From Parabacteroides merdae ATCC 43184 (lineage in GTDB: Bacteria > Bacteroidota > Bacteroidia > Bacteroidales > Tannerellaceae): a stretch of 64,000 nucleotides of DNA. The notes under the pieces were generated by a model. That model did no database searches. It was not told where the DNA came from and saw only the letters and a list, made by a program, of their open reading frames with translations. A program made the position numbers and the translations under genes. This document shows, piece by piece, positions 39,320 to 58,518 of the stretch. The stretch is from NCBI RefSeq assembly GCF_025151215.1, contig NZ_CP102286.1:3844001-3908000 (forward strand), in the 5' to 3' direction. How positions within the stretch are numbered: position 1 is the stretch's first letter; every line of letters begins with the position of its first letter.

Positions 39320-40360
39320 TTAGATCTCTTCAGGATTACTTATTATAAGCTGATAGCCGGTTCCCCGACAAGATTTGATTTGGATAAATGGCATAGGGGC
39401 CAAGCTTTCCCGCAAGCGCACAATAGCAGCAGAGACCGCATCGCGTTCCGCTTTACCGATCTTTTCCTTTTTTAAGGCATTTCCGAGGATTTGTGAATAG
39501 ATAATTTGAGGTGCTATCACTGATTGTTGAGAATTAATCAGATGAGTAAACAGCTTCAGGCCTTGCCCGCTTAAAGTCACATGTAGGTTTTTGTATTTCA
39601 AGATGCCGCTTTTCTTGTCGAACTGTAATCCGAAAGGTAAGGTCCCTTCTTTGGAAAAAGAACGGACAAAAGCGACAACCGGCTTTTCTACAATTTTTGT
39701 TTCTACAACTTTCTTTTCAAGCAATACCGCGTTTAGTTTTTTTATTCCCCATTTATAACTGCCGTATAAAATTCCGACAAATAAACCATAAAAGAGTAAA
39801 AAGAGAAGGATGGAATCTGCCCGTTTTAAAACAAAGGAAAGCGGAATTTGCATAAATGCTTGTAATTCTATATTGTCTTCTATATTTTTATTCTTCCGAT
39901 ATATAACTGGCTTCAAAGCGGTAGCTTTTTTCATAAAAAGGCTATCGGTGTAACTTATCGTTGTTTTCTCTTTACGCTTACAACGCACCGCTGTTTGTGT
40001 TTCCATACCTAAATCTGCAAGTCTGGCGCGAAAAAGGCTATCCAGGAAAATCCGGTTCGGATCATTCAGAGACAGATAGTCCTGGTCACACCATCTTTCT
40101 TTTTCTTCATAGGAAATAGAGTCCGATAATAATAATGCCCCTCTATTAGTTTTTATCGGTATGGAACCCAATCGGGTGTTCATTTCTTTACTGATAGCAT
40201 CTTGAAAAGTAGCAGAGGCTTCAGTGAAAATCTTTTTACGGCATGAAAGGAATCCATGCCAGACCATTATCAAACAAAACAAAGTCATACACATATATAA
40301 TAATATGCATAGTCTTTTAAAAAAAAGGATTTTGTCTGTATGTCTATTCTCTTCTTGCAT
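39320..40360 (-). CDS. Membrane-anchored winged-helix (OmpR-type) regulator
   Basis: 346-residue one-component regulator with two membrane segments (about residues 17-38 and 184-205) enclosing a roughly 145-residue periplasmic sensor. A cytoplasmic linker follows, then a C-terminal winged-helix domain (about 240-340) ending VRLRESLAPMPFIQIKSCRGTGYQLI, typical of the trans_reg_C fold. It reads divergently from the NVEALA-peptide array, with three 11-bp direct repeats between them, so it is the likely controller. It has no receiver or kinase domain. Similar in layout to ToxR-like regulators but with a large sensor between two helices. Confidence 0.8.
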   Translation of the reverse strand: MQEENRHTDKILFFKRLCILLYMCMTLFCLIMVWHGFLSCRKKIFTEASATFQDAISKEMNTRLGSIPIKTNRGALLLSDSISYEEKERWCDQDYLSLNDPNRIFLDSLFRARLADLGMETQTAVRCKRKEKTTISYTDSLFMKKATALKPVIYRKNKNIEDNIELQAFMQIPLSFVLKRADSILLFLLFYGLFVGILYGSYKWGIKKLNAVLLEKKVVETKIVEKPVVAFVRSFSKEGTLPFGLQFDKKSGILKYKNLHVTLSGQGLKLFTHLINSQQSVIAPQIIYSQILGNALKKEKIGKAERDAVSAAIVRLRESLAPMPFIQIKSCRGTGYQLIISNPEEI

Positions 40361-40428
40361 GTTGCAAAAATATAAAAATGGACATCTATATAGGCTTTTC
40401 TCTTCAGATATATGTAATTCAAGTCCGA

Positions 40429-40461
40429 AGAAAACCTACAGAAAACCTACAGAAAACCTAC
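40429..40461. promoter_or_regulatory. Three perfect 11-bp direct repeats (candidate operator)
   Basis: AGAAAACCTAC occurs three times head to tail (40429-40439, 40440-40450, 40451-40461) in the divergent promoter region. OmpR-type winged helices commonly bind tandem direct repeats of about one helical turn, so this is a likely site for the adjacent regulator. Confidence 0.7.
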
Positions 40462-40530
40462 AAGAAGTCAGGAAATGGCATTCTATTTATCTGTTTAATA
40501 GCGAATTGTGAAATATGTGGCACAAACCTA

Positions 40531-40561: not shown

Positions 40562-40578
40562 CCTCAAAAACAAAAGTT

Positions 40579-40806
40579 ATGAAAAAAAGAGTTTCAGCAG
40601 TAGTAATTGTTTTGGTTTGTTTGGGTGGAGTTGCTTGTATCAAGACATTGTCGACATCATCTGTCGGCTTGCCTCAATTGGCATTTGATAATATTGAGGC
40701 TTTGGCGTCCGGTGAGAGTAGTGCTTATAGGTGTTACGGGATAGGCGATGTCGACTGTCATGGTGATAAAGTTGATAAGATGTATAGTGGCTATAGTTTA
40801 AAATGA
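40579..40806 (+). CDS. NVEALA-family small exported peptide 1 (75 aa)
   Basis: Small protein with a hydrophobic N-terminal signal or membrane segment (KKRVSAVVIVLVCLGGVAC) and the family signature FDNIEALASGE at about residues 36-46. The 30-residue tail has two Cys and many Gly/Asp residues. The ATG at 40579 is chosen because the longer frame would read through the operator repeats and promoter. The leader differs most from the other five peptides. The next gene starts 1 base after its stop, so there is no intervening hairpin here. Function unknown. Confidence 0.8.
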   Translation: MKKRVSAVVIVLVCLGGVACIKTLSTSSVGLPQLAFDNIEALASGESSAYRCYGIGDVDCHGDKVDKMYSGYSLK

Positions 40807-40807
40807 C

Positions 40808-41863
40808 ATGAGAATCTTCCTATACATATTATTAATAGGAATAAGTACATTAATCTCCTGCAGTGGTTCACCCGATCCTCTTTACCCTCGGTATACAACT
40901 TTTCCTGATGAGAAAATAGTAGCCACGCAGGAGATTTCTATTGATTCTGCCTTTTTCCGTTATCCCTACCGGGTAGCGGTAAAAGACAGTATCGCTATCA
41001 TCATGGATTTACATAATGACAGCCATTACTTTTACGCTTTTACTTATCCGGAGTGGAAGCCGATCGCACCGTTCGGAAAGCGTGGAGAGGCCCCCGGAGA
41101 AATGCTTTCGGCAGAGATGTTCCAGTTTTCTGCATTGGATTCAGTCTGGACATTGGATGCTAACCGGATGCTGATCACGCGCTGGTCTGTCTCTCCGACG
41201 GGCAAGACCGTTTTGCGCAAAGAGGAAATAAGATTAGATAAAACATTAGTTCGCTCTTTAGATTTTTATCGTACAGATTCAGCCTTTCTGATCACAAACT
41301 ACTTAGGTGATTTTCGTTATCACAAAGTCAGTCATAGTGGTAAACCGATCAAAAACATAGGTAAAATTCCCACCGAAATCAGCTATGAGCAAGATATTCA
41401 TCCCGCCTTAGCACAAGCTTGGCGTAGCTTTACCGATTACAACCCGAAAAACGGGATATACGCAATGGCGACCCAATTGGGAGAAGCCCTTGAAATATAC
41501 AATCTAAAAACTCAAACTCATAACGTTATATACGGTCCTGCCGGAGAACCTCAATTCATTGCAAAAGGAGGCGAAGGATTCCCGACCGGCATCAAAGGGT
41601 TTGTGGACATACAAGTCACAGACGATTATATTTATACCGTTTTCGATGGGATGTCCTGGAAAGAGCGGGACAAATTTTACGAACGCGGCATGTCTGCTCC
41701 CAAAGGAGGCCATTTCCTTTACGTGTTCGATTTGGCAGGAAACCCGGTTCGAAAATATACGCTCGACAAAAATATCTTGGGCATCCATATCAATGAAAAA
41801 ACAAACATCGGAATTGCGACCTGCGCGGAAAGCGATAATCCGATCGTGACATTCAAATTATAA
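40808..41863 (+). CDS. Six-bladed beta-propeller-like lipoprotein A
   Basis: 351-residue lipoprotein (GISTLISC lipobox, Cys about 18) made of repeated beta-rich blades, of the TolB-like/BF3222 type found beside NVEALA genes in Bacteroidales. Contains the blade motif FGKRGEAPGEM followed by SVWTLDANRM. No catalytic residues are recognisable, so a binding or scaffold role at the envelope is inferred. Immediately follows peptide 1. Confidence 0.78.
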   Translation: MRIFLYILLIGISTLISCSGSPDPLYPRYTTFPDEKIVATQEISIDSAFFRYPYRVAVKDSIAIIMDLHNDSHYFYAFTYPEWKPIAPFGKRGEAPGEMLSAEMFQFSALDSVWTLDANRMLITRWSVSPTGKTVLRKEEIRLDKTLVRSLDFYRTDSAFLITNYLGDFRYHKVSHSGKPIKNIGKIPTEISYEQDIHPALAQAWRSFTDYNPKNGIYAMATQLGEALEIYNLKTQTHNVIYGPAGEPQFIAKGGEGFPTGIKGFVDIQVTDDYIYTVFDGMSWKERDKFYERGMSAPKGGHFLYVFDLAGNPVRKYTLDKNILGIHINEKTNIGIATCAESDNPIVTFKL

Positions 41864-41870
41864 CAAGAAA

Positions 41871-42749
41871 ATGAAACAACTGCTCTACATATTATTCCTA
41901 TTATTTTTGTTAGCCGCTTGCCGGGAAAACAAGAAAGATCAATTTGCCCGTCTGGTTCAGGAATGGCAGGGAAAAGAGATCGTGTTTCCGCAGGATATGG
42001 CTTTCACCCGTTTCGTCACTGAGCAGGTGGAATACCGGATACCCGATGCAGAATATAAAGTGCTGATTTATGTCGATTCAACAGGTTGCATCAGTTGCAA
42101 ATTGCAACTGCCGAAATGGAAAGAATTGATCGCCCATGTCGATTCGGCAACAAACGGCAGCATCCCGTTCATCTTCGTCTTCCAGTCGAAAGACGACCGT
42201 GAGTTGCGGTACATCCTGAAACGCGACAACTTCGACCGTCCGGTCTGCATCGATCGGGACAGCCGATTGAACAAGTTGAACCGATTTCCGCAAGATATTA
42301 CATTTCAGACTTTCTTGCTTGATAAGAATAATAAGGTGAAGGTGATCGGCAATCCGGTGCATAACTTGGCTGTCAGGGATTTGTATTTGAAACAGATGAC
42401 CGGGAAAATATCACCGGGGCGCGACCGGATCAAAACGACGGCAAAAGCCATAAACAGCGAAGTAGACTTCGGCGCATTTTCGAAATCCGAAGAGAAAACG
42501 GCTGTTTTTGAAATAGAAAACACGGGAGACAATCCCCTTGTCATATTGGATATCAGTACCACTTGCGGTTGTACGACTGCAAACTATGACAAACACCCAG
42601 CGAAGCCGGGAGAGCGGCTTCGTATTGAAGTCAGGATGACACCGAAAGACACAGGCTTTTTCGATGAAATCGTCACACTTAAATGTAACACAGCAAGTCC
42701 TGTCAAAGTAAAAATAAGAGGGCAAGTTCAGGAAAGGGAGCCTGCCTGA
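41871..42749 (+). CDS. Thioredoxin-like/DUF1573 lipoprotein
   Basis: 292-residue lipoprotein (LFLLAACRE). The N-terminal half looks like a thioredoxin fold with a CISC motif (VDSTGCISCKLQLPKWKEL). The C-terminal ~95 residues are a DUF1573/Ig-like domain (EVDFGAFSKSEEKTAVFEIE; DISTTCGCTTANYD). Probably periplasmic redox or cysteine-handling function, apt next to Cys-containing peptides, but not proven. Fragments of the same DUF1573 end recur at 48196-48395 and 50531-50591. Confidence 0.82.
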   Translation: MKQLLYILFLLFLLAACRENKKDQFARLVQEWQGKEIVFPQDMAFTRFVTEQVEYRIPDAEYKVLIYVDSTGCISCKLQLPKWKELIAHVDSATNGSIPFIFVFQSKDDRELRYILKRDNFDRPVCIDRDSRLNKLNRFPQDITFQTFLLDKNNKVKVIGNPVHNLAVRDLYLKQMTGKISPGRDRIKTTAKAINSEVDFGAFSKSEEKTAVFEIENTGDNPLVILDISTTCGCTTANYDKHPAKPGERLRIEVRMTPKDTGFFDEIVTLKCNTASPVKVKIRGQVQEREPA

Positions 42750-42937: not shown

Positions 42938-43192
42938 ATGAAAAAGCATATATTTGGAGCAGCACTTTTAGTAGCAATAGCAGTGGCTGCTGGCTGGAAT
43001 TACCAGCAAAATAAACAAGATGTTCAACTCTCAGACTTGGCGCTGACGAACGTGGAAGCGTTGGCCAGTGGCGAAGGGAGTGGTGACTGTAAATGGAGAA
43101 CTGGACATAGCTCCGTAACCGGTTGGATCGCAATATGTGACTCATACGGTGTTGGATATTCATGCTCCTGCGGAGATATAAAATATTATTAA
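42938..43192 (+). CDS. NVEALA-family small exported peptide 2 (84 aa)
   Basis: Leader pattern shared with peptides 3-6: a short basic start, a hydrophobic stretch, AGWNYQQNKQ, then LSDLALTNVEALASGEG. The 40-residue tail is unlike its paralogues and has four Cys (DCKWR; IAICDS; YSCSCGD). Role unknown; the leader/tail contrast suggests a processed, secreted product. Followed by a strong hairpin. Confidence 0.82.
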   Translation: MKKHIFGAALLVAIAVAAGWNYQQNKQDVQLSDLALTNVEALASGEGSGDCKWRTGHSSVTGWIAICDSYGVGYSCSCGDIKYY

Positions 43193-43252: not shown

Positions 43253-44377
43253 ATGATAACAAGAATACGACTCTTGCTTTTTATATACTTGTTCTGTACA
43301 AATAGTATTAACGGTATTTTATCTCCCTCCCGTGTGGAAAATACCATTCAAATGGACATGAATCACTACCAAAAAATCACATTTGATAGTTTGATTACAG
43401 ACATTTCCTGTACAAAACTAAGTAATACTGTATTTGATTTTTGTACAAATATGGTTCAATATAAAGATTTCCTATACTTTATGGGAAGTACTATGGCTGG
43501 AAAAAATGTATATATATACTCTAAGTCCGGAAAGTTCATAAAGGAAATTACATTTTCGGATGCCTTAATAGTCAATTCCATGTGTATTGTTCCGGAATTG
43601 GAGGAGTTGTGGGTCGTGAGCAGATTCAAAATTATCAACAAGTTCAAACTGGATGGCGCACCGGTCAAAAAAGTGTCTTTGCCTTTTCCTTGTGCCGCCA
43701 TCATACCGACCGCAAAACAAGATTTTCTGGTTTATTCGGGAGGAGCCAATACAGAAAGAGGACACATTGAAGGACACTTTATGGCTCTCACCGATTTCAA
43801 GTCTATCCACAAATTATATCTGCCCAAATGGGGGAAAAAAGAATGGTTGTTCGCACCTTATAATTTATATACGACAGATGCTGACGACATTTTGATTCTC
43901 CCGGATAACACAGACACAATCTATAGATATGATACTTCCGAGAAGGAGATACTCCCATATTATAGTCTTGATTTTCATGGAGAATTTCTAACCAGAGACA
44001 AGTATCCCAAAGAAGATGCGGGAATGGCTGAAATAATCGATAAGAAAAAATACATCCATAACTGTTATAGCTTTTATTTCGCTTCGGATTATCTTTTTTT
44101 CAAGTTAATGGGGAAAAGGGACGATTTTTGTGCTATCCGGTGTAAAGACAATATCCTCTTTTCTTTCGACCGTCTTTTTGACAATTTCAGATCCAAATAT
44201 GTGAATCCTTTTATCGGTTCAGATAAAAACAATCTTTATTTGCTTGTTCGCGAGAATGACCTTGCCGGTCATTACTTAAATATTAAATGCACATACCCGG
44301 CTATCCGGAAAATGTTACCCGGATTATTAACCACTGGGAACGATTGGATTTTACTAACGATTAAAATAAAGGAATAA
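43253..44377 (+). CDS. Six-bladed beta-propeller-like exported protein B
   Basis: 374 residues with an N-terminal signal sequence (ITRIRLLLFIYLFCTNSING) but no clear lipobox, unlike most of its paralogues. The body is beta-rich with blade-like turns (VYIYSKSGKFIKEITF; TIYRYDTSEKEILPYYSLDF). It resembles the 6-bladed propeller family but is divergent and lacks the GPxEY motif. Confidence 0.68.
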   Translation: MITRIRLLLFIYLFCTNSINGILSPSRVENTIQMDMNHYQKITFDSLITDISCTKLSNTVFDFCTNMVQYKDFLYFMGSTMAGKNVYIYSKSGKFIKEITFSDALIVNSMCIVPELEELWVVSRFKIINKFKLDGAPVKKVSLPFPCAAIIPTAKQDFLVYSGGANTERGHIEGHFMALTDFKSIHKLYLPKWGKKEWLFAPYNLYTTDADDILILPDNTDTIYRYDTSEKEILPYYSLDFHGEFLTRDKYPKEDAGMAEIIDKKKYIHNCYSFYFASDYLFFKLMGKRDDFCAIRCKDNILFSFDRLFDNFRSKYVNPFIGSDKNNLYLLVRENDLAGHYLNIKCTYPAIRKMLPGLLTTGNDWILLTIKIKE

Positions 44378-44380: not shown

Positions 44381-45469
44381 ATGAAAAATATCACCCAACA
44401 GTTCTTTTTTATATGCTTGGTTTGCGTGCTTTTGAGCTCTTGCTCAGATCAAAAGGCAACAAAAATTGCTTTGATAGCGGATTTATCTCCTGAAGAATCC
44501 CGGCCGACATGGACGGAGTTGTTTTCTGATCGCTACGAAATTACTCTGCTGGAAACGACTTCCGGCAGTTTGATCGGGCAGATTGATAAGATCAGGAAGT
44601 TTCGGAACCATTATTATGTTTTATCCTCTAATGGCAAAACAATCCACCATTTCGACAAGGATGGAAAATTCGTATCGTCTTTGAACAGGCAAGGACAAGG
44701 GCCGGAAGAATATCCCCGAATAGAGGATTTCGATGTCTGCGAGGCAGATGGTAAAACTGAAGTATGGATTTCGGACAACAAAAGCCTGAAAGTATATGAT
44801 GCTACCGATTTTTCTTTCAAAAGAAAAATTTCCTATCCATTTGTAATCCACAAATTTAAAAAGATGGAGAACTCTCATGTCCTGCTTGTCACCGGACAGA
44901 ACGAAAACATTTTGACGTTGGTAGACAAAGAGGGGGAAATTATTGCCGAATATTTGAAAAAAGAAATACCCTACATCATGTTCCGGCCGGTACAATTTGC
45001 GGCTTATGGATCCAGTTATCTTTTCCAGTTAGGTATTTCAAACACATTCGTTTCATTCAACCCGCAAACTGAGCAATTCCAAATGGGACACTATGCCGGA
45101 GGAAATGAGTTTCTCACCGAAAAGCAGTTGTTGGAAATGTTTCAAACACACGGTATCGATTTTATCCTTGAAGCCAATAAATGCTCTTACATCAACAACA
45201 TGATTTCTTTAGGGAATATAATCTGGCTACAGACACATCAGGGTGGAAAAAACTACCTGACAAAAGTAGAAGAAGGACAAAAGGTCTCAACCCAATTCTC
45301 ATACGGGACAACTCTTTCCACTATTTCTGACGCAGAGAGCGATGACAGCATATTATTATATATCACGCCCGACCGTCTTTCGGAACACCCCGAAGATGTG
45401 ATCGACAAATTTGGCAATAAGATTATTTGCAATATGGAAGATAATCCTTATATATTAGAGTTTTTTTAA
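44381..45469 (+). CDS. Six-bladed beta-propeller lipoprotein C
   Basis: 362-residue lipoprotein (VLLSSCSD). It has a clear family motif LNRQGQGPEEYPRIEDFDV followed by VWISDNKSLKVYD in the early blades. Three bases separate it from propeller B. No enzyme motif is seen. Followed by the repeated leader R1 and peptide 3. Confidence 0.8.
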   Translation: MKNITQQFFFICLVCVLLSSCSDQKATKIALIADLSPEESRPTWTELFSDRYEITLLETTSGSLIGQIDKIRKFRNHYYVLSSNGKTIHHFDKDGKFVSSLNRQGQGPEEYPRIEDFDVCEADGKTEVWISDNKSLKVYDATDFSFKRKISYPFVIHKFKKMENSHVLLVTGQNENILTLVDKEGEIIAEYLKKEIPYIMFRPVQFAAYGSSYLFQLGISNTFVSFNPQTEQFQMGHYAGGNEFLTEKQLLEMFQTHGIDFILEANKCSYINNMISLGNIIWLQTHQGGKNYLTKVEEGQKVSTQFSYGTTLSTISDAESDDSILLYITPDRLSEHPEDVIDKFGNKIICNMEDNPYILEFF

Positions 45470-45550: not shown

Positions 45551-45765
45551 AAAAGAAAGGAGTCTCTGCCTACCGCCTCACAAACGTTAGCAGAAACTCC
45601 CGGACTTTTCCTCATTCAATAACAAATAAAGAAGGAGGTAACGGCAAAAATAGTAAATTTGGAGTAAAGAAAAAAGGGTTGGGAATCACCTGTTCCGGGA
45701 AAAGATACCGGGTGAAAGAGCCACAATTAATAATAAAATGATAAATCCCTAAAAATAATAATAAA
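45551..45765 (+). promoter_or_regulatory. Structured leader R1 before peptide gene 3
   Basis: About 215 bp closely similar to R2 (48411-48627) and R3 (50609-50822), ending at the peptide start codon. Hairpin GGAGTCTCTGC/GCAGAAACTCC (45559-45600, one mismatch), a GAAGGAGGTAACG block, and a second stem around CACCTGTTCCGGG and CCGGGTG. No ORF is evident inside. Likely a 5' untranslated regulatory leader. Confidence 0.65.
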
Positions 45766-45999
45766 ATGGGGACAAAAATTTTGGGCGTAATCGCTTTTGC
45801 AGCGATCGCCGCCGCAGCAGCAGGCTGGAACTACCAGCAAAATAAACAGGAGGTTGAACTTTCTGACTTGGCGTTGGCTAATGTAGAGGCTCTTGCTAGA
45901 GGTGAGAGCGGAAGAGATCGTTGTGACGACTTCACTACAATGACTTGCTTGTCAAATGGACATACATATTATAACATGTATCCTGCTTGCGGTTTATAA
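45766..45999 (+). CDS. NVEALA-family small exported peptide 3 (77 aa)
   Basis: Starts MGTKILGVIAFAAIAAAAAG, then WNYQQNKQEVELSDLAL and the NVEALARGE signature. The 33-residue tail (DRCDDFTTMTCLSNG onward, ending PACGL) has three Cys. Nearly identical to peptide 4 up to the signature and unrelated after it. A hairpin and T run follow. Confidence 0.83.
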   Translation: MGTKILGVIAFAAIAAAAAGWNYQQNKQEVELSDLALANVEALARGESGRDRCDDFTTMTCLSNGHTYYNMYPACGL

Positions 46000-46057: not shown

Positions 46058-47080
46058 ATGATCATGAAAAGTCTATTCATTATTATTCTATGCTTTCTTT
46101 TCACCTCTTGTAGTGAAAACCAGTATCGCATTTTCACATTACCTGAAGAGACTCCTGTCAGCGGGGTTGACTATCCCTATGAACTCTTTATGAATTATCC
46201 TTGGTCAATAGATATCATAGATGATAAATTATTACTCTTTGCCACTAAAGGTGACTACTTTATGCGAATAGTTGATGCTAATAATGGCAAAGAGATTAAA
46301 CAAATTGGTCTATTCGGTGGCGGACCTAAAGAATTTGTACAACCCGTCTATTGGGGAAAAAATGGTAAAGATGTATATGTTTATGATGAAGCAAAAATGT
46401 ACCTGAGGACATATTCATGGCATGAAATCTTAAATGCGGAAGAATTACCGGAAGCGAAAACAATAAACTTGAAAGGTAATGAGAAAAATATCTTATTCGG
46501 CAAGGTACTTAATCAGGATTATTTTGTAGGTTCGGTCGTCGTTGGTATGCCCCATCCTATAATTATACTGGATAAAGAGTTGAACACAATCGGGAACATG
46601 GGGAATATTCCGGATAAAGACCATCAAAGTGAAGCATTAGTTACTTATGGAGGTTCAGTCAGTTCGTATGGAAATAAGTTCGTGTCTACAATGGCATCAT
46701 TTGGCTATATCGCCTGCTATGAGCAACAAGCAGATGGCACTTGCAAAATATTATGGGATGCTTGTGCAGAACAACCAATCTATAAGAAAGACCAATTAGA
46801 CCTGACTCTTTTGAAATTAGGTTTTGCAGATGTGAAAATGACAAAAAATTATATCTTCTGTAGTTATTTCGGGCAAAAATATGATCGGGACAATCGGAAA
46901 AACATAAAACCCAGAAACATGCTGGTGTTTGATCATCAAGGCAATTTACTGAAAAACTTACGTTCGGAAAGAAGTTTAGCCCGGTTCACCGTTTCCGAGG
47001 ACGAAAAAACAATCTATGCCGCGACTGAAGAACCGGAAGTGGCGATCATACGGTTTGATATTAGTAACATTCTGAAATAA
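46058..47080 (+). CDS. Six-bladed beta-propeller-like lipoprotein D
   Basis: 340-residue lipoprotein (CFLFTSCSEN) of the TolB-like type, with blade motif IGLFGGGPKEFVQPVYW and VYVYDEAKMYLRTY. Closer in layout to propeller A than to C. Start may be Met-1 or Met-3 (46064). Eight bases precede the next propeller gene. Confidence 0.78.
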   Translation: MIMKSLFIIILCFLFTSCSENQYRIFTLPEETPVSGVDYPYELFMNYPWSIDIIDDKLLLFATKGDYFMRIVDANNGKEIKQIGLFGGGPKEFVQPVYWGKNGKDVYVYDEAKMYLRTYSWHEILNAEELPEAKTINLKGNEKNILFGKVLNQDYFVGSVVVGMPHPIIILDKELNTIGNMGNIPDKDHQSEALVTYGGSVSSYGNKFVSTMASFGYIACYEQQADGTCKILWDACAEQPIYKKDQLDLTLLKLGFADVKMTKNYIFCSYFGQKYDRDNRKNIKPRNMLVFDHQGNLLKNLRSERSLARFTVSEDEKTIYAATEEPEVAIIRFDISNILK

Positions 47081-48195: not shown

Positions 48196-48395
48196 ATGAA
48201 AACATGCTTCTTATTCATGATATTAAGTATTCTGACCTCTTGTACAATTGGAAAGAACTGCAACCGGGAGAGAGCGGAACGATCACGGTCAGCTACGAAG
48301 CGGAACAGCCGGGCGATTTTTACCGAACGGTAGACATTTATGGGAACATTCCGAACAACTCGCTGATGGTGAGTTTTATCGGGACAGTGAAATAA
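48196..48395 (+). pseudogene. Remnant of a thioredoxin/DUF1573 lipoprotein gene
   Basis: An ATG at 48196 opens an intact lipoprotein signal (KTCFLFMILSILTSC), but the frame soon dies. In another frame the typical end of a DUF1573 domain is readable (LQPGESGTITVSYEAEQ, then SLMVSFIGTVK to the stop at 48395). Best explained by a large internal deletion joining the two ends out of frame. It occupies the same place in its unit as the intact gene at 41871. Confidence 0.75.
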
Positions 48396-48627: not shown

Positions 48628-48867
48628 ATGGGAACGAAAATTTTGGGCGTTATCGCTTTTGCTGCAATCGCCATAGCGGCTGACTGGAATTACCAGCAGA
48701 ATAAACAGGAAGTTGAACTCTCAGACTTGGCATTGGAAAATATTGATGCGTTAGCAAGAGGAGAACATGGACCGGATTGGGGACATAGTAAACTCGTTTA
48801 TGAGCCAAATGGTTGTTGCAAAGATGATCCTTACTTAGATTGTTCTGGAGCATACAGTCCTTGTTGA
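48628..48867 (+). CDS. NVEALA-family small exported peptide 4 (79 aa)
   Basis: Leader almost identical to peptide 3 (GTKILGVIAFAAIA; WNYQQNKQEVELSDLAL), with the signature in the variant form NIDALARGE. The 36-residue tail has four Cys in a CC...C...SPC spacing (NGCCKDD; LDCSGAYSPC), similar to peptide 5. Confidence 0.82.
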   Translation: MGTKILGVIAFAAIAIAADWNYQQNKQEVELSDLALENIDALARGEHGPDWGHSKLVYEPNGCCKDDPYLDCSGAYSPC

Positions 48868-50822: not shown

Positions 50823-51059
50823 ATGGGAAAGAAATTTTTTGGCGTAATCGCTTTTGTTGCGATCGCCACCGCCGCCGGCTGGAACTACCAGCAAAATAAA
50901 CAAAGTGTTGAATTGTCGGACTTGGCATTGGAGAATGTCGAGGCATTGGCAAGAAATGAAAGTGGAAAGAACAATAAGGCATTGGCTCAAAAGGCGAATG
51001 GAGAATACTGTTGTACTCCTTTAAACGGTAATAATTGTACTCAATCACCAGCTTGTTAG
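50823..51059 (+). CDS. NVEALA-family small exported peptide 5 (78 aa)
   Basis: Leader MGKKFFGVIAFVAIATAAG, WNYQQNKQSVELSDLAL, signature NVEALARNE. The tail carries four Cys (EYCCTPLNGNNCTQSPAC) with spacing like peptide 4. A terminator-like hairpin follows. Confidence 0.82.
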   Translation: MGKKFFGVIAFVAIATAAGWNYQQNKQSVELSDLALENVEALARNESGKNNKALAQKANGEYCCTPLNGNNCTQSPAC

Positions 51060-51164: not shown

Positions 51165-52322
51165 ATGAGAAAGTCTATTTTTTTTCATGATCAACAGAGA
51201 GTCTGGCTCCTTGTTTGTTGGGTCTTTATCACATTCGGTTGCCTTCCTGAGGAACAGAGGCTTACATCCGTTCCTGCCATAGAAGTAGACATAGCTTCAG
51301 ATACAGAGTTGAAATTGTCAGAATACTTTGAGAATTTTCGAATGCTCAAGCTTCCGACGGATACTCTTATGGGGAAAATAGAGAACATTAAGTGTGAAAA
51401 TAATAAAATTTATATCTCTGATGGACTAACTCTTTTTGCTTTCTCCGAAGAAGGAGAATTAGCCCTTTGCTTAGAGAAAAGAGGTGAAGCTCCAGATGAA
51501 TATTCTGGGATTTCAGATTTTGTGATAGACGGTGAAAATATTATAATATTGGACAGGAATCAACAAAAAACAATAACGTATGATCATTCAGGAAATAGTA
51601 TTTCAACATTTCATCTCAAGTACTATGCACAAGCTATTTCGCCGATAGTGAATAATACATTTTTTTTATATAACGGATTTGATACAAGTCACAAATTGCA
51701 TCGGATTAAAAATTGGAAAGAAGATTCCGCATTTTTAGAAGTAGATAAAAACCAAACAGGATACTTGTTCATATTCGCTCATCACAATTTTTATCAAGAT
51801 CATGATTCTATTTATTTTTTTCAACCGATCAATGATACTATTTACAAGTCTGTTGAAGGCGGAAATATGAATCCGTTCCTCCATATCGACTTTAAAGGGA
51901 AAAATATACCTACATCTTTTTTCAGTGATAAGAAATATGAAAACGTTAAAGATTTTTTCGACAATTTGAATAAAAGATCTTATGCCTATGGTATTTATAG
52001 TTTTATAAGGGATAAGCGATTCACGATGTTCGGTAGTTTCTATCAGAAAAATAAAAAATTGACATTATTCGACCATAAAAATAAATCATCGAATACTTTC
52101 GGTACAATTAAAGATGATGTTTATTTCAAGGGTTTGACGATCCCTATATCTCAATTTATTTATCATGCAAATAAGGATGGTTCTATCGTTGTTCCATTGG
52201 AAGCCTATTCTGTAGTTGAATGGCGAAATACATACACACCGTCTGAGCCATTCGGAAGTATAATCAATACAACAAAGGAAGATGATAATCCATTGCTTTT
52301 GATCTTCGATTTCAAACAGTAG
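51165..52322 (+). CDS. Six-bladed beta-propeller lipoprotein G
   Basis: 385-residue probable lipoprotein (WVFITFGCLPEE; the N-terminal region before it is longer than usual). Family motif LEKRGEAPDEYSGISDFVI followed by IIILDRNQQKTITYD. Single propeller behind peptide 5; no DUF1573 remnant follows. Confidence 0.78.
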   Translation: MRKSIFFHDQQRVWLLVCWVFITFGCLPEEQRLTSVPAIEVDIASDTELKLSEYFENFRMLKLPTDTLMGKIENIKCENNKIYISDGLTLFAFSEEGELALCLEKRGEAPDEYSGISDFVIDGENIIILDRNQQKTITYDHSGNSISTFHLKYYAQAISPIVNNTFFLYNGFDTSHKLHRIKNWKEDSAFLEVDKNQTGYLFIFAHHNFYQDHDSIYFFQPINDTIYKSVEGGNMNPFLHIDFKGKNIPTSFFSDKKYENVKDFFDNLNKRSYAYGIYSFIRDKRFTMFGSFYQKNKKLTLFDHKNKSSNTFGTIKDDVYFKGLTIPISQFIYHANKDGSIVVPLEAYSVVEWRNTYTPSEPFGSIINTTKEDDNPLLLIFDFKQ

Positions 52323-52365
52323 AACCAATCACCATAAGTTTATAAATCCCTAAAATAAAACAAAA

Positions 52366-52611
52366 ATGGGAAAGAAATTTTTTGGCGTAATCGCTTTTGC
52401 AGCGATCGCCGCAGTAGCAGGCTGGAACTACCAGCAAAACAAAAATGAGGTTCAACTCTCTGACTTGGCATTGGAAAATGTCGAGGCTTTAGCTTGGGAT
52501 GAGAATAAATCAAACTATCATTTGTTTCCATGTCCATCAAGTTCCGGAAATGAATGCCGTTTTAAAGACAGTGAACGTCCTGAATGTTATGGTCCAACGT
52601 ATTGTAGATAA
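52366..52611 (+). CDS. NVEALA-family small exported peptide 6 (81 aa)
   Basis: Leader as in peptide 5 (MGKKFFGVIAFAAIAAVAG, WNYQQNKNEVQLSDLAL), signature NVEALAWDE, so even the first residues after the motif differ. The tail has four Cys (LFPCPSS; GNECRF; PECYG; TYCR). Only the last ~40 bp of the shared leader precede it. The next gene starts 2 bases after its stop, with no hairpin. Confidence 0.82.
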   Translation: MGKKFFGVIAFAAIAAVAGWNYQQNKNEVQLSDLALENVEALAWDENKSNYHLFPCPSSSGNECRFKDSERPECYGPTYCR

Positions 52612-52613
52612 CC

Positions 52614-53777
52614 ATGTACAAATTACTATTTCATTATTTATGCATAATTTGCATTAGTATATCTTGCTCTCAGAGAAGAGAAAATATAAAGACCGTTGAT
52701 AATGACTTAGTTGAAATACAGAAGGAGGAACTTTTTTTCCCTCCTTCTGACGTATTACAACTAAAGTCCTATTATTTGTCTTCTTCGGTACAAGTAGGTG
52801 CTAAACATATATTGATTGGATATAACCATAAGGAACATGCTTTGGATTGTATCGATCTTCTGGAGAAAAAAATCATTCAAATTCCGTTACAAACAAGTGG
52901 TCCTAACGCCATAACTCGTTTAACTGGAATTTTTGCATATCAAAAAGACTCCATTTGGGTTGCTGATGAATCGGAATCCGTATTCCTGATTGATCCGAAA
53001 GGGAATGTGTTGAAACGTATTCAAATCCGTAATTCTTTGCAAGAAGACGAGGAATTGATCATAAATACGAATCATGCTATGTCTACAATTCGTTTGTATT
53101 ACAATGCCCTGCACCAGTCGCTGCTATGCACGGTAAAAGATAGGTCTGTTTCGCCACCCCGATTCAAAGTAAAAGAAATTTTCCTCGAAGAAAACCAAAA
53201 GGTAAAAACTTTCAATTTATCTCCATCTATTGCGGAACCAGACATAAGCAAAGGGTATGCGAACATGAGTGAACCGAATGTCAACTTTCGGGATGATTAC
53301 ATTTTATATAATTATCCGATAGAATCACATCTCTACAAGATCGATTTGAACACAGGATCTGGAAAAATGTACAAAGCTGATAGCGATTACACTTCCAATA
53401 AAGCTCAAAAGTGTAAATCCAAAACAGATTATACAGAATGGCAAAGACACGGATTTGAAAATCCTCATTTTTTTGATATCATGTATCTTCCGACATGTGA
53501 TATGTATGCCCGTTTGCATGTGGATGCCATTGATTTCGGTAAAAACGAAAACCTGGAATTATTATCCAGAGAACGGGATTTTTATTTATGTCTGTTTGAT
53601 AATGAGCTTAATAAAATAAAAGAAATCAAACTGCCCATAAACACATTCAATCCTTATACAGGCTGGTGTCAGCTTCATGATGGAATCCTTTTTTTTGTAG
53701 ATAAAATTACAGATCAAGAGATTTCCGAAGATTTAGAAGTGCATATCTTTCATCCTGTCATGATAAAGAATGATTGA
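52614..53777 (+). CDS. Beta-propeller-like lipoprotein H (DUF4221-like)
   Basis: 387-residue lipoprotein (CIISISC-type end: ICISISCSQR). Beta-rich repeats such as DSIWVADESESVFLIDPKGN and FYLCLFDNELNKIKEIKLP. It lacks the GPEEY motif and seems closer to the DUF4221 group of propeller proteins. Directly behind peptide 6 and 23 bp before the transglutaminase-like gene. Confidence 0.7.
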   Translation: MYKLLFHYLCIICISISCSQRRENIKTVDNDLVEIQKEELFFPPSDVLQLKSYYLSSSVQVGAKHILIGYNHKEHALDCIDLLEKKIIQIPLQTSGPNAITRLTGIFAYQKDSIWVADESESVFLIDPKGNVLKRIQIRNSLQEDEELIINTNHAMSTIRLYYNALHQSLLCTVKDRSVSPPRFKVKEIFLEENQKVKTFNLSPSIAEPDISKGYANMSEPNVNFRDDYILYNYPIESHLYKIDLNTGSGKMYKADSDYTSNKAQKCKSKTDYTEWQRHGFENPHFFDIMYLPTCDMYARLHVDAIDFGKNENLELLSRERDFYLCLFDNELNKIKEIKLPINTFNPYTGWCQLHDGILFFVDKITDQEISEDLEVHIFHPVMIKND

Positions 53778-53800
53778 AATATAGTTTCTCCCCTAAAACA

Positions 53801-55756
53801 ATGAATATGAGATTGCAATATAAAACAACTACAAAATATCTGTTTTTTTCGTTGCCTTTCTACTTGATGCTTTTTGCTTGCGGCTTACAAATAACCGATG
53901 TGGAATACGCTCTGCGGGAAGCCGGAGAAAACAGAGGGGAGCTTGAAGCGGTTTTGTCGCACTACGCAAAACTGGATGATCGGCAGAAACTGGAAGCAGC
54001 CCAATACCTGATTCGATACATGCCTTACCATACTTCTTATGATAAAGGCATTGAGGACTATTATCACGCCATTGATTCTGTCGTTGCTTTATCAGAAGAC
54101 AAACTTGAACAAGAAAAACATATCGAATCGCTTCGTCTTAGATTTGAAAGTAAATATAAACAGAAACGGGATATAGAGGTTATCACTTCGGAGTTTCTTA
54201 TTCAGTCAATCGATGAAGCTTTCAAACAATGGAGAGAATGCGAATGGGCCGAACATCTGGATTTCGAACAATTTTGTGAATATCTATTACCTTATAAATG
54301 TTTTGAAGGGCAGCCGCTTACCGAATGGAGGAATGCCTATTACGATATTTGTAAAGGAGATATTGATCTGGCATATTTGTGTGACGAGTATAAACGAAAT
54401 CCAATTTTTGCAGCAACAGAAGTGAATAACCAAATGAAAAACACACCTCAAAGTTTTGGATTATTAAAGACACTTCCGATTTATGATCCTGATATCATAC
54501 TGAAACTTCCTTTTTCTAATTGTGCCACGTATTGTTTAGGGGCTGTCTTAATCATGCGTAGTAAAGGAATTCCTGTCGCTTATGATTTTACGCCCAATTG
54601 GTCTACAGGTAATAATGGACATTCTTGGAATACAGTTTATACAACGCGTTTTGGAAACTTGGAGTTTGCGCCCCATACGACAGATCCGGGCACAGTTCAT
54701 TATCCATATTTGAAAGTCCCTAAGATTTTCCGCAATGTGTACAAACCCAATGAAGAGTATCTGAAAATCGCAACTGAGAAATATATCCCACCCAAACTCA
54801 GGAATATGTTTATACAAGATGTTACCGCTGAATATATGCCTACGATTGACATACGTATTTCGTTGCAGGAATCATTGAAGAGTGGACAATCTCCATTTAT
54901 AGCCATCTATGATGGAAATAATTGGACTCCTGTCTATTGGGGGAAAATAGCTGGTAGTCATGTGGTTTTCGAAAGAATGGGACTGAATACCTGTTATATC
55001 GCCTTGGCGTATGACTCTAATGGCAATGCTATTCCGATCAGCAAACCGTTTTTGGCTTCTGCTTCGAAGCATATCCAATTTATAGAACCAGACACTTCAG
55101 CTTTTCGTACGATCAGATTGAATCGAAAATATCCTTTGGGAGACAATGTATTTTCTATTAGAAAAAAAATAACAGGAGGTATTATCGAAACTTCTGAAAA
55201 CAGGGAATTTGATCATACAAAGAAAATAGCGGAATTACCTCAAGGGAATTTAACAAATGGCACAGTGTTTCTTGATAAAAATGCCGAATATCGATATTGG
55301 CGTTTTACATCTTCTGATACAAGTCAGTGTGACATGGCTGAAATTTATTTCTATGATGAACATGATTCGATCATTCAAGGCAACATTATCAAATGTACAA
55401 ATTCGATTTTTGATAAAAGCAACAACGCAGCTAATATAGCAGATGGTGATCAATTGACAAATTTCAGTGCCAAAGGAGAAGATTGGGTCGGTTTTGATTT
55501 TTGCCGGCCAGTAAATATATCCAAAATTTCGTATATTCGTCGTTGTGATGGAAATTCTATTCAGCCAGGATTGGAGTATTCTTTATATTATTGGGATAAT
55601 AATAATTGGCAACTTATCAATACCAAAATAGCGAATGATGTTTTTATCGAATTTGAAAATGTGCCTCAAAAAGCCCTTTTGGCCATTAAATGCTCGCAGG
55701 GAAAGCAACAAAGAATATTCGTTTGTGATGAAGATAATAAAATTGACTGGTATTGA
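53801..55756 (+). CDS. Transglutaminase-like lipoprotein with discoidin-like C-terminal domain
   Basis: 652-residue lipoprotein (YLMLFACG). After an uncharacterised helical N-terminal region lies a transglutaminase/protease-like core with Cys241 (FSNCATYC), His274 (NNGHSWNTVY) and Asp295 (HTTDPG) in triad order and spacing. The last ~140 residues resemble a discoidin/F5-8C or CBM32-like beta-sandwich (EYRYWRFTSS; NIADGD; GFDFCRPVNISKISYI). I chose ATG 53801, since the longer frame begins with TTG inside the previous gene's end. May crosslink or cut peptides or wall material; substrate unknown. Confidence 0.78.
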   Translation: MNMRLQYKTTTKYLFFSLPFYLMLFACGLQITDVEYALREAGENRGELEAVLSHYAKLDDRQKLEAAQYLIRYMPYHTSYDKGIEDYYHAIDSVVALSEDKLEQEKHIESLRLRFESKYKQKRDIEVITSEFLIQSIDEAFKQWRECEWAEHLDFEQFCEYLLPYKCFEGQPLTEWRNAYYDICKGDIDLAYLCDEYKRNPIFAATEVNNQMKNTPQSFGLLKTLPIYDPDIILKLPFSNCATYCLGAVLIMRSKGIPVAYDFTPNWSTGNNGHSWNTVYTTRFGNLEFAPHTTDPGTVHYPYLKVPKIFRNVYKPNEEYLKIATEKYIPPKLRNMFIQDVTAEYMPTIDIRISLQESLKSGQSPFIAIYDGNNWTPVYWGKIAGSHVVFERMGLNTCYIALAYDSNGNAIPISKPFLASASKHIQFIEPDTSAFRTIRLNRKYPLGDNVFSIRKKITGGIIETSENREFDHTKKIAELPQGNLTNGTVFLDKNAEYRYWRFTSSDTSQCDMAEIYFYDEHDSIIQGNIIKCTNSIFDKSNNAANIADGDQLTNFSAKGEDWVGFDFCRPVNISKISYIRRCDGNSIQPGLEYSLYYWDNNNWQLINTKIANDVFIEFENVPQKALLAIKCSQGKQQRIFVCDEDNKIDWY

Positions 55757-55808
55757 TTGTAGCAACCTGAATATAAAATGATATATTTTTTAATCTAAAA
55801 GATAGATT

Positions 55809-56672
55809 GTGAAACGATGGATTAACATATTATTGAATCTATTTCTCGCTTTGGTGGTTCTGATCGCCTTTTGGCTCTTCTCTCAAGTCTTCCTCCTCGC
55901 CTCCTTCCGCATCCCCAGCGACTCGATGGAGCCGGAACTGGTCGAAGGGGATTTCGTGGCGGTCTGGAAACCGACGCTCGGCGCACGGCTGTTCGACCTC
56001 AACGCGACGCTGCGGCTGGAACAGACCGAGATACACCGCACACCGGGATTTCGGAAAACAAAGCGGGGCGACGTGCTGGTCTTCAACTTCCCGCATCCCA
56101 ACGGCTGGGACAAGATCGAGATGCATATCCTGAAATACTACATCAAACGGTGTATCGGATTGCCGGGCGACACGCTTTCCATCCGGAACGGAAGGTTCCG
56201 GATAAACGGCACGAACGAACCGCTCGGGAACATGGATTCGCAGGAACGCATCGGGCGGACGTTGCCGGGAGAGTTTCCGGACGGTGTCTATAAGGCATTC
56301 CCGTTCGACTCCGTCATCAGTTGGAACATCCGGAATTTCGGACCGCTCTATGTCCCGAAAGCCGGTGACAAGGTCGAAATGAACCGGGAAAATTATCTGT
56401 TATACCGCAAGCTGATCGCATGGGAACAAAAAGCGGAAATCAACTATAATGATTCAACCGTTTTCCTGAACGGCGAACCGATACGGGAATACCGCTTCTT
56501 GAAAAACTATTATTTCATGGCGGGTGACAAAGGCCTGAACTCGCAGGACTCGCGCTATTGGGGCTTGTTGCCGGAAGAATATATCGTCGGCAAGGCGGCA
56601 TTTGTCTGGAAATCGGTCGATCCGTACACCGGGCAGTTCCGCTGGGATCGGTTCATGAAGAAAATCGAATAA
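55809..56672 (+). CDS. Signal peptidase I (S26) homologue
   Basis: 287-residue inner-membrane serine protease with one N-terminal helix (LLNLFLALVVLIAFWLF). Catalytic Ser39 (RIPSDSMEP) and Lys113 (YYIKRCIGLPGDTLSI) are present, and the C-terminal box is AGDKGLNSQDSRYWGLLPEE rather than the canonical GDNR start. GTG start; no closer ATG. It is extra to the housekeeping lepB expected elsewhere. Placement right after the peptide array suggests dedicated processing (inferred). Base composition is visibly more GC-rich than the preceding 12 kb. Confidence 0.88.
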   Translation: MKRWINILLNLFLALVVLIAFWLFSQVFLLASFRIPSDSMEPELVEGDFVAVWKPTLGARLFDLNATLRLEQTEIHRTPGFRKTKRGDVLVFNFPHPNGWDKIEMHILKYYIKRCIGLPGDTLSIRNGRFRINGTNEPLGNMDSQERIGRTLPGEFPDGVYKAFPFDSVISWNIRNFGPLYVPKAGDKVEMNRENYLLYRKLIAWEQKAEINYNDSTVFLNGEPIREYRFLKNYYFMAGDKGLNSQDSRYWGLLPEEYIVGKAAFVWKSVDPYTGQFRWDRFMKKIE

Positions 56673-56685
56673 AAAACGGATAAGC

Positions 56686-58518
56686 ATGGAAATAAAATAC
56701 ACCGGCATGGAACTCAAATTGCATAGGCATGGAATCCGGACTGCACTGGCATCCGTTTTCGGGGCGATGCTGATCGCCACGCCGTTCGTCGGCGACAGCG
56801 CATTGGCGAACGGCATTGTGACGGGGAAAGTCTTCTGGTTCCACCTGTCGATGGCGCTGATGGCGATCGGGACGGTTGTGACGGCATGGCCTGGCGGGAG
56901 GAAAAGCATCCCGTTTGCATTGCCGGACGGATTGTTGCTCCTCTTTGCCGGGATCACGCTCGCGACATACGACTGGCAGCTCGATCCCGAACCCGAAAAA
57001 CTGCTTTTCGGCGGGCAGTTGGTCGTGTTGTGGTTTCTGTTGCGCTATTTTCTTACAGAGGCTCCTTGCCTGAAGTTCTTTTTCTTATTTGTGCTGATGC
57101 TCACCGGACTGGTCGAAGCCGTCTGGGGAATGCAGCAATTGCATGGCTATGCCTATTCCAACCATTCGCTTTTCCGGCTGACGGGTTCTTTCTTTAATCC
57201 GGGGCCTTACTGCGGGTACTTAGCGGTCGTGCTGCCGGTTTGCCTGTGGACGGCGTTGCGGTTTCAAAAGGGGATGCATTATTTCGGTTGGGTATGCGCC
57301 GGAGCTATCCTGATTGTCCTGCCTGCCGGAATGAGTCGGTCGGCGTGGATGGCGGCGGTCGTGGCTTGCGGATGGGTGTACTGGACGGAACGGATCGGAT
57401 GGGAGAAGACGAAAGCTGTATGTCGAAGGTATAAGAATGCTACAATTCCTTTTATTGCAATTGTGGCGATATTGGTGGGATGTACCATTGCCGGGGTTTA
57501 CGGGATGAAACAAGATTCGGCGGACGGGCGATTGCTGATGTGGAAAGTGACGGTGAAAGCGATTGCCGGACAGCCGCTTGCAGGAACGGGGTTAGGCGGA
57601 TTCCCGGCGGCATACGCGGAGGCGCAAGGCGGGTATTTCGCAACAGGGAACGCAACAGACCGGGAGAAACGGGTGGCGGGATGTCCCGAATATGCGTTCA
57701 ACGAATACCTGCAGATCGGGCTGGAACAGGGGGTCGGAGGGTTGATCGTGTTCGTGGCATGGCTGGGGAGCATGGCGTACTATGGAATCCGGAACAGGCA
57801 GCAGGGAACGGCCGGTGGCGTGTTGGCGTTAGCGGTGTTCGCGGTGTCGTCCTATCCGTTGCAGTTGCCGTCGTTTTGGGTGGCGTTGGTGTTTTTGGGG
57901 GCGATATGCGTGACGGAAGATGGGACGCGGACAAGATCATCTGCCCTATCCGTATCACCGGTGTGCCATATTACGATGATAAGTCTGTTGTCGCTTGCCT
58001 CCGTCTGTCTGTTCATCTTGCAGAAAGGGCAATATGAGGCATATAAACGATGGGGACGGATGCAGATGATCTACAACAACAAGGCGTATGAATCGGTTGC
58101 GGAAGATTATCACGAGCTGCATGACAAGTTGAAGCATAAACCGGAATTTTTGTTTGAAGAGGCGCAATGCCTCAGCAAGACGGGACAACACGCCGAAGCG
58201 ATACGGGTGCTGGAACGGGCGAAGCGGCTGAGCGGAGACCCGATGATCCGGTACATGATCGCCAAAAACCGGCAGACGCTCGGAGATTACCGGGAGGCGG
58301 AAGAAGAATTGCTTCAGGCTATCGGGATACTGCCGGAGAGATTGTATCCATATTATTTGTTAGCCAAGCTATATGCAGAGCCGGAGTTCTACCAGGTGGA
58401 TAAATTGCGGGCTGCCGCCAGTGTCGTGCTGTCCAAAGAACCGAAGGTGGAAAGTACGGCAATCCGGGAAATGAGGGAAGAAGTAAAAAAGATAATAGAC
58501 AAGGGTGACTTTGATTGA
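56686..58518 (+). CDS. O-antigen ligase/Wzy-like membrane protein with C-terminal TPR region
   Basis: 610-residue polytopic protein with about 10-12 helices and the Wzy_C/ligase features GSFFNPGPYCGYLAVVLPV, GTGLGGFPAAYAEAQGGYF and FNEYLQIGLEQGVGG. A soluble C-terminal third has TPR-like helices (LFEEAQCLSKTGQHAEAIRV; GDYREAEEELLQAIGI). Families with this core include O-antigen ligases, polymerases and O-oligosaccharyltransferases; which one is unknown. GC-rich like the signal peptidase gene 13 bp upstream. Confidence 0.85.
   Translation: MEIKYTGMELKLHRHGIRTALASVFGAMLIATPFVGDSALANGIVTGKVFWFHLSMALMAIGTVVTAWPGGRKSIPFALPDGLLLLFAGITLATYDWQLDPEPEKLLFGGQLVVLWFLLRYFLTEAPCLKFFFLFVLMLTGLVEAVWGMQQLHGYAYSNHSLFRLTGSFFNPGPYCGYLAVVLPVCLWTALRFQKGMHYFGWVCAGAILIVLPAGMSRSAWMAAVVACGWVYWTERIGWEKTKAVCRRYKNATIPFIAIVAILVGCTIAGVYGMKQDSADGRLLMWKVTVKAIAGQPLAGTGLGGFPAAYAEAQGGYFATGNATDREKRVAGCPEYAFNEYLQIGLEQGVGGLIVFVAWLGSMAYYGIRNRQQGTAGGVLALAVFAVSSYPLQLPSFWVALVFLGAICVTEDGTRTRSSALSVSPVCHITMISLLSLASVCLFILQKGQYEAYKRWGRMQMIYNNKAYESVAEDYHELHDKLKHKPEFLFEEAQCLSKTGQHAEAIRVLERAKRLSGDPMIRYMIAKNRQTLGDYREAEEELLQAIGILPERLYPYYLLAKLYAEPEFYQVDKLRAAASVVLSKEPKVESTAIREMREEVKKIIDKGDFD

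Follow-up and report, generated by a model that had tools for sequence, protein, structure and literature searches.

An array of NVEALA peptides and propeller lipoproteins in Parabacteroides merdae, with syntenic copies across the Bacteroidales

The stretch of DNA analysed in this study (64,000 nucleotides of the complete, 4.38 Mb genome of Parabacteroides merdae ATCC 43184; hereafter the window) contains, at positions 39320–58518, an array in which genes for small peptides of the NVEALA family (PF14055) alternate with genes for propeller-like lipoproteins, together with genes for a regulator, a thioredoxin-like/DUF1573 lipoprotein, a transglutaminase-like lipoprotein, a type I signal peptidase and a membrane protein with a Wzy_C domain. 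Many Bacteroidales and a Phocaeicola plasmid carry syntenic copies of the same system. By sequence comparison, the mature part of a peptide and the propeller encoded downstream of it appear to be cognate pairs, as specific recognition would give, and it is highly probable that these are secreted peptides, cut by a signal peptidase at NVEALA, each with its own propeller. The reading that fits best would be an autoregulated system of secreted, disulfide-bonded peptides in which every peptide has a dedicated lipoprotein for binding or immunity; its role may be antagonism or signalling.

Pairing of mature peptides with their propellers

Pairing was assessed with 128 unique peptides that have a downstream propeller, drawn from 67 loci, 41 of which hold at least two peptide-propeller modules. 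Mature part, leader and propeller were each compared by normalised local alignment score, with mature parts counted as related above 0.35 and as unrelated at 0.2 or below, and propellers as related above 0.25; the thresholds of 0.35 and 0.25 were chosen after the bins had been seen, and the 475 of 8,128 pairs with a mature similarity of 0.2–0.35 were left out of both counts. Related propellers accompanied 180 of 198 pairs with related mature parts, compared with 102 of 7,455 pairs with unrelated ones, and 500 shuffles within loci over all modules gave a mean of 51.5 and a maximum of 106 against the 180 observed. For peptides that do not adjoin the regulator, 45 of 50 related-mature pairs had related propellers, where global shuffles gave a mean of 0.9 (maximum 5) and within-locus shuffles a mean of 14.8 (maximum 30). 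Most pairs are unrelated, so that a Mantel correlation across the full set is weak (rho 0.16 for mature part and propeller, −0.07 for leader and propeller), and for this reason the comparison was made by bins and shuffling.

The leader behaves differently, with leaders at least 0.85 alike being accompanied by related propellers in just 12 of 86 pairs. Since the propeller tracks the mature part and the leader does not, the unit is likely to be the mature peptide plus its propeller. Leaders of peptides not adjoining the regulator have a median similarity of 0.61 within a locus as against 0.35 between loci, and one pair of modules from Phocaeicola and Bacteroides combines a mature similarity of 0.77 and a propeller similarity of 0.43 with a leader similarity of 0.17. 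Mature peptide-propeller units have apparently been exchanged behind locus-specific leaders. The suggestion, made in an earlier reading of the sequence alone (the sequence-only reading), that each propeller acts as a partner of a peptide is borne out at this level, the partner seeming to be peptide-specific.

The head propeller, which is the first in the array, was modelled as a six-bladed propeller of the NHL type (pLDDT 91.7). The NHL six-bladed propellers PAL (3fvz), the NHL domain of Brat (1q7f) and DUF4221 (3s9j) are ~10% identical to the array propeller, a likeness that implies no shared function. A lipobox is present in 179 of 239 propellers, 54 of 61 DUF1573 proteins and 58 of 75 transglutaminase-like proteins, compared with 26 of 200 control open reading frames (ORFs).

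Leader, processing enzymes and conservation across the Bacteroidales

For the analysis of the leader, 152 of 164 peptides could be anchored (130 of them unique) and 12 were set aside, with columns −5 to −1 being partly fixed by the anchor pattern itself. The 130 unique peptides share a block, L-S-D-L-A-L-x-N-[VI]-E-A-L-A-x-x-E, with N at −6 in 123, A at −3 and at −1 in 129 each, and E at +3 in 113. At least 126 of them end the leader in A-L-A, and variants like E-A-S-A and E-A-I-A occur among the 12 unanchored peptides. Signal peptidase I classically recognises A-x-A. Glutamine occupies +1 in 31 of the 130 peptides, compared with 80 of 4,986 other mature positions (p 4e-27), and is found in at most 5 of the 130 at any position from +2 to +25; none of the six peptides in the window has it at +1. 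This enrichment supports a predicted cut after NVEALA, with signal peptidase I substrates in Bacteroidetes exposing Gln, ~71% across the phylum, according to the study that describes this Q-rule (PMC10653852). The mature peptides would be 28–71 residues long with usually 2, 4 or 6 cysteines, and an even number in 133 of 152, which supports disulfides in them. Peptides that are exported, processed and disulfide-bonded, as had been proposed in the sequence-only reading, are therefore what the cut motif, the +1 residue and the cysteine counts would suggest.

The array enzyme is a type I signal peptidase by PF10502 and TIGR02227 matches over cut-off and by its catalytic Ser-Lys motifs, with S39 and K113 invariant in 16 of 16 sequences. 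A longer homologue, matched over its C-terminal part in all 59 family genomes, is a separate protein. The CxxC motif of the thioredoxin-like/DUF1573 lipoprotein is kept in 60 of 61 relatives, its DUF1573 match being over cut-off and its thioredoxin-type NCBIfam match far below. Transglut_core (PF01841) reaches 17.9 bits in the window copy and 24.7 bits in one relative (cut-off 23), and Cys250 and His283 are invariant in 75 of 75 relatives. The last protein, which had been read as a ligase-like membrane protein, does have a Wzy_C domain (55.4 bits, cut-off 31.7) and, like the O-antigen ligase WaaL (7tpg; a weak match, E 0.0007), the Arg of R-L-x-x-W. It is unlike WaaL in possessing a C-terminal TPR domain and in having Phe (Phe338) aligned to the His of the 7tpg H-N motif in 65 of 65 sequences. 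That His, in a periplasmic loop, is presumably catalytic, and with Phe in its place glycan ligation should not be assumed.

PF14055 was searched for in genome sets of the genus (38 genomes), family (59; threshold E ≤ 0.01), order (295; E ≤ 0.001) and phylum (296; E ≤ 1e-4), and the array signal peptidase in the genus set, with presence taken at E ≤ 1e-40, and the family set, 11 genomes of which are genus members already in the genus count. Both were found in 21 genus genomes, the peptidase only in none, NVEALA only in 2 and neither in 15 (Fisher p 9e-9); for the family set the corresponding numbers are 20, 7, 7 and 25 (p 8e-5). NVEALA matches occurred in 17 order genomes and in 2 phylum genomes, both Bacteroidales and one of them the source genome.

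When the signal peptidase alignment was scanned against GTDB genome contigs, the best 80 of 521 relatives gave 79 loci, many of which end at contig ends and a few of which overlap or come from one genome; their genera include Parabacteroides, Bacteroides, Phocaeicola, Tannerella, Proteiniphilum and Petrimonas. The profiles used to count linkage were built from the same loci, so that the counts favour recognisable members. Over all 79 loci these were NVEALA 54, propeller 64, DUF1573 52, transglutaminase-like 53, Wzy_C 61 and regulator 27, and among the 41 loci with at least 8 kb upstream and 3 kb downstream they were 39, 40, 38, 34, 36 and 23, respectively. Nearly all other array ORFs (496 of 499, regulator excluded) run in the direction of the signal peptidase gene. 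Twenty control stretches of 20 kb, taken at regular positions in five genomes, held no NVEALA, DUF1573, transglutaminase-like, signal peptidase or Wzy_C gene, 2 propellers and 1 regulator-like ORF; together with the co-occurrence in the genus, these controls rule out a chance cluster. The order conserved in many genera is regulator, head peptide, TolB_like propeller, thioredoxin-like/DUF1573 protein, a variable number of peptide-propeller modules, transglutaminase-like protein, signal peptidase and Wzy_C protein. The comparison across genomes that the sequence-only reading had called for thus shows a conserved gene order and families that occur together.

Not every array carries its own peptidase. 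Four with regulator, peptides and propellers have no signal peptidase gene in the stretch examined (L247, L252, L253 and L260). Three of these genomes encode one elsewhere, so that the peptides may be processed in trans. At E ≤ 1e-40 there is none in the genome of L260 (G303, 99% complete), and either another peptidase serves there or the peptides remain uncut, which argues against an absolute need for the enzyme. A simple filter for a hydrophobic start and a Cys-rich end found no divergent peptides in 12 chosen signal peptidase loci that lack NVEALA. On plasmid pBdorCL06T03-4 of Phocaeicola dorei (L262), NVEALA genes, propellers, lepB, an O-antigen ligase family gene and a transglutaminase domain gene lie together, which suggests horizontal spread of the array. 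IS1380-like and other transposase genes also occur with this array, and a SusCD-fucosidase set is nearby. Two other loci (L110, and L149 of Tannerella forsythia ATCC 43037) hold two tandem array units with the Wzy_C gene before the signal peptidase gene, the reverse of the usual order. A contig filed under Patescibacteria (L165) has the same array type as a Proteiniphilum contig from the same sample (L151); the two share the match position and have similar coverage in their contig names, and the Patescibacteria assignment is possibly a binning error.

The peptides are of two kinds. Mature peptides of the type C-x-G-x-G-[SD]-x-[DE]-C form the largest cluster (30 of 128 modules, in 29 loci), mostly adjoin the regulator and are as a rule followed by one orthologous TolB_like propeller, 34–89% identical to that of the window in 31 others. 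A few head peptides differ (e.g. locus L144), and the peptides of other types vary. The regulators of 24 other loci are 15–31% identical to that of the window, whose Pfam score is weak (19.7 bits, cut-off 26.2) and whose model contains a winged helix of the OmpR/ToxR/CadC type at residues 236–342; the winged helix filled the fold-search list, which covers the DNA-binding part only. With the two hydrophobic segments that were found, this model agrees with the divergent membrane-anchored regulator of the sequence-only reading. Like ToxR and CadC, the regulator would join an OmpR-type winged helix to a periplasmic domain across the membrane. ToxR and CadC have an N-terminal DNA-binding domain and a single transmembrane segment, whereas the predicted DNA-binding domain here is C-terminal and there are two such segments.

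A second array (L036) lies ~88 kb away in the same genome and is inverted. The two share a 6,149-nucleotide stretch of 99.6% identity (window 52356–58502, L036 3182–9326), an inverted repeat at which gene conversion or chromosomal inversion could take place. The reading frames of the DUF4221 propeller and the transglutaminase-like protein are broken in the L036 copy. Between the two sites, signal peptidase and Wzy_C identities are 100% and 99% in this genome, 92% and 96% in P. massiliensis (G306), 74% and 87% in G304 and 72% and 77% in G095, two of the Wzy_C copies being incomplete, which indicates that the processing genes have been homogenised in two of the four genomes. The two regulators of the P. 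merdae genome are 28% identical; that of site B is 91% identical to the site B regulator of G304, and that of site A at most 32% identical to those with which it was compared. This fits arrays that are separately controlled but share machinery.

Proposed mechanism and alternatives

In the mechanism proposed here, the N-terminal hydrophobic segment of the NVEALA precursor would insert it into the inner membrane, and the signal peptidase I encoded in the array would cut after N-V-E-A-L-A, the leader comparison supporting the site and co-occurrence pointing to the enzyme. The mature peptide would gain disulfides, with the CxxC thioredoxin-like/DUF1573 lipoprotein a likely helper, and would be bound by the adjoining six-bladed, NHL-type propeller lipoprotein as a receptor or immunity protein, as the pairing suggests. 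Head peptide and head propeller may report to the membrane-anchored winged-helix regulator, which would control the array, and the variable peptides may be effectors between cells, most likely antagonistic to relatives, with the propeller giving self-protection. In outline the plan would be like that of a pheromone-controlled class II bacteriocin regulon, made of other parts. As a whole, this explanation of regulated, diversified secreted peptides with private partners, self-sensing and antagonism is put forward tentatively, the antagonism and self-sensing steps being held with less confidence than the secreted cognate pairs. We lean towards the narrower view that NVEALA leaders have a signal peptidase I of their own, which releases disulfide peptides, and that a six-bladed propeller lipoprotein private to each peptide recognises it, with cassettes of mature peptide and propeller swapped between loci behind locus-specific leaders, the processing genes homogenised in some genomes and the regulators differing, and that peptide systems of this kind have not been described before.

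Several findings weigh against this explanation. The mature peptides are acidic (mean net charge −2, with 11% of 152 positive), and in charge they are unlike most pore-forming bacteriocins. Related mature parts had unrelated propellers in 18 of the 198 pairs, 13 of these via one locus. Co-inheritance of neighbours may contribute in part to the pairing, and it is not fully separated from pairing because the control with the upstream propeller (31 modules) had 5 related pairs, of which 4 were downstream-related and 1 upstream-related. The regulator covaries more with the head propeller (partial rho 0.35–0.40) than with the head peptide (0.15–0.18), values that carry no significance estimate. In the family set the 7 genomes with the peptidase and no detected NVEALA, and the 7 of the reverse kind, count against a strict link, as do the 2 genus genomes with NVEALA and no array peptidase at the threshold used, which are 99% and 82% complete. 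Neither a DUF1573 gene nor a regulator is annotated in the P. dorei plasmid stretch, and there is no array-specific exporter, the neighbouring RND genes described below occurring with or without the array. Lastly, a +1 Gln frequency of 24% is far below the phylum norm cited above (PMC10653852), and the array signal peptidase may accept other +1 residues.

Signalling without toxicity, in which all peptides would be pheromones and the propellers periplasmic or surface receptors feeding the membrane regulator, is the main rival, if an unlikely one. The acidic peptides suit it, as do the position of a membrane-anchored regulator with a periplasmic domain beside the conserved peptide and propeller, the covariation of the regulator with the head propeller, and the retention of different regulators with near-identical signal peptidase and Wzy_C genes at the two sites of one genome. 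There is, however, usually one regulator for several peptides in an array, so that most pairs are without a regulator of their own, and the variable pairs, which differ between loci, would suit antagonism too.

It is improbable that the array instead makes a surface structure, with the peptides as subunits or decorations, the propellers as assembly chaperones, the transglutaminase-like protein as crosslinker and the Wzy_C protein attaching glycan. The invariant Cys and His of the transglutaminase-like protein, the presence of a Wzy_C domain and the single enzyme set common to all peptides of an array would agree with this, but the Wzy_C protein has Phe in place of the WaaL His, and mature peptides that are short, unalike and each tied to a partner would be unusual polymer subunits. 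Slightly less probable again is hitch-hiking in a loose lipoprotein hotspot, where neighbours are co-inherited without functional pairing, for although adjacency alone predicts co-inheritance and the upstream comparison was possible for so few related pairs, the leader lies nearer to the mature part than the propeller does and does not track it, within-locus shuffles fall far under the observed value, and the plasmid copy and genus co-occurrence speak against it.

Compared with known systems, the array resembles class II bacteriocin regulons with induction peptides (blp/pln type). In both, a single locus under regulation encodes several precursors that have their leader type and processing set in common, the regulator adjoins a conserved peptide, and the variable peptides each have a partner gene beside them. 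The partner in the array, unlike theirs, is a six-bladed propeller lipoprotein; the leader is not of the double-glycine type, ending in A-L-A, and no ABC transporter, C39 peptidase or histidine kinase was found by Pfam among the array genes at 39320–58518. As neither the leader nor the transporter of that class is present, the array was not placed there. Bacteroidetocins are likewise small secreted Bacteroidales peptides from leader-bearing precursors, which for the array is a prediction, but their predicted cleavage follows a GG motif and their cluster includes a peptidase-containing ABC transporter (PCAT) (PMC10352776), whereas the array has a leader ending in NVEALA, a linked signal peptidase I and propeller partners.

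In the literature searched, outside of which lie subscription papers and preprints, there was no description of NVEALA/PF14055 peptides or of the propeller array among the titles listed. The only trace there of a model-organism copy (Bacteroides thetaiotaomicron VPI-5482) was in a table listing BT0662 (O-antigen ligase), BT0664 (6-bladed propeller), BT0667 (lepB) and BT0669 (RND adaptor). The ratios tabulated for them are accompanied by a second column, apparently of adjusted p values, in which the entries are at least 0.1 (PMC10434189). From the names and order in that table, these BT genes would form an NVEALA array. Arrays occur in the human gut genera Parabacteroides, Bacteroides and Phocaeicola with no function recorded in the literature searched, and the array appears to be a novel means of making and recognising diversified peptides. 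If the pairs are of the toxin-immunity or signal-receptor kind, common gut bacteria would be competing or communicating through a large, diversified channel that had so far gone unread, and several DUF propeller families would gain a role. The pairing rule makes this question of role testable one peptide at a time.

Locus features and neighbouring genes

The features of the array are collected in Table 1. Six NVEALA genes, the thioredoxin-like/DUF1573, transglutaminase-like, signal peptidase I and ligase-like genes and the divergent regulator were found in the content and order given in the sequence-only reading. All six NVEALA proteins exceed the PF14055 gathering score (42.9–54.4 bits, cut-off 27), and the head gene most likely starts at 40579 rather than 40378. 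Of the eight propellers in that reading, seven match TolB_like, DUF5128/DUF4934 or DUF4221 in Pfam; the eighth (43253–44377) is a propeller by look and position only, as it has no Pfam match and no clear lipobox, and shows a normalised similarity of 0.90–0.95 among three loci with the same mature peptide. The short gaps that had been noted hold inside modules, but 188–547 nucleotides lie before or within several of them.

Table 1. Annotated features of the array, in window coordinates.
Feature	Position	Strand	Evidence
Divergent regulator: transmembrane segment 1, periplasmic domain, transmembrane segment 2, C-terminal OmpR/ToxR-type winged helix (predicted)	39320..40360	-	
Head NVEALA peptide, conserved type C-x-G-x-G-[SD]-x-[DE]-C	40579..40806	+	PF14055 44.3 bits on longer ORF
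Head propeller lipoprotein (TolB_like)	40808..41863	+	PF15869 269.7 bits
Thioredoxin-like (CxxC) + DUF1573 lipoprotein	41871..42749	+	PF07610 88.8 bits
NVEALA peptide 2	42938..43192	+	PF14055 52.9 bits
Propeller-like partner of peptide 2	43253..44377	+	no Pfam match
Propeller lipoprotein (DUF5128/DUF4934)	44381..45469	+	PF17170 85.7 bits
Upstream block common to stretches before peptides 3, 4 and 5	45575..45768	+	TAAATTTG at 45654
NVEALA peptide 3	45766..45999	+	PF14055 54.4 bits
Propeller lipoprotein (TolB_like)	46058..47080	+	PF15869 64.9 bits
Propeller lipoprotein (DUF5128/DUF4934)	47088..48176	+	PF17170 65.9 bits
DUF1573 gene remnant	48204..48395	+	PF07610 36.5 bits, profile 50-98 only
NVEALA peptide 4	48628..48867	+	PF14055 42.9 bits
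Propeller lipoprotein (DUF5128/DUF4934)	49415..50488	+	PF17170 93.4 bits
NVEALA peptide 5	50823..51059	+	PF14055 49.3 bits
Propeller lipoprotein (DUF5128/DUF4934)	51165..52322	+	PF17170 105.6 bits
NVEALA peptide 6	52366..52611	+	PF14055 48 bits
Propeller lipoprotein (DUF4221)	52614..53777	+	PF13970 60.7 bits
Transglutaminase-like + F5/8 type C lipoprotein	53774..55756	+	F5_F8_type_C over cut-off, Transglut_core below cut-off
Array-linked type I signal peptidase	55809..56672	+	PF10502 116.1 bits; TIGR02227 109.4 bits, cut-off 47
Wzy_C (O-antigen-ligase-like) membrane protein + C-terminal TPR	56686..58518	+	PF04932 55.4 bits

The DUF1573 remnant was seen by Pfam and missed by tblastn with the intact DUF1573 protein of the window. 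An Rfam scan of the window gave no match at gathering score. GC content falls to 0.33 inside the array, compared with mostly 0.44–0.50 around it, and is 0.53–0.54 in the signal peptidase and Wzy_C genes.

A conserved-looking RND efflux operon repeatedly lies directly downstream of arrays, across genera (L113; L036 2042–3106). Judged by ORF length only, an RND-like ORF is downstream in 21 of 56 loci with at least 8 kb of downstream DNA, and the RND adaptor near the array in the P. merdae genome was confirmed by Pfam. The pump was considered as a dedicated exporter and ruled out, the adaptor being present in 36 of 38 genus genomes whether or not they have the array; because of this independence it is regarded as a neighbour and not as part of the array.

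A block of ~190 bp is shared by the stretches before three NVEALA genes (45575–45768, 48437–48630 and 50633–50825), with TAAATTTG, which we take to resemble the Bacteroidales −7 element, in every copy. The blocks possibly serve as internal promoter and as recombination homology.

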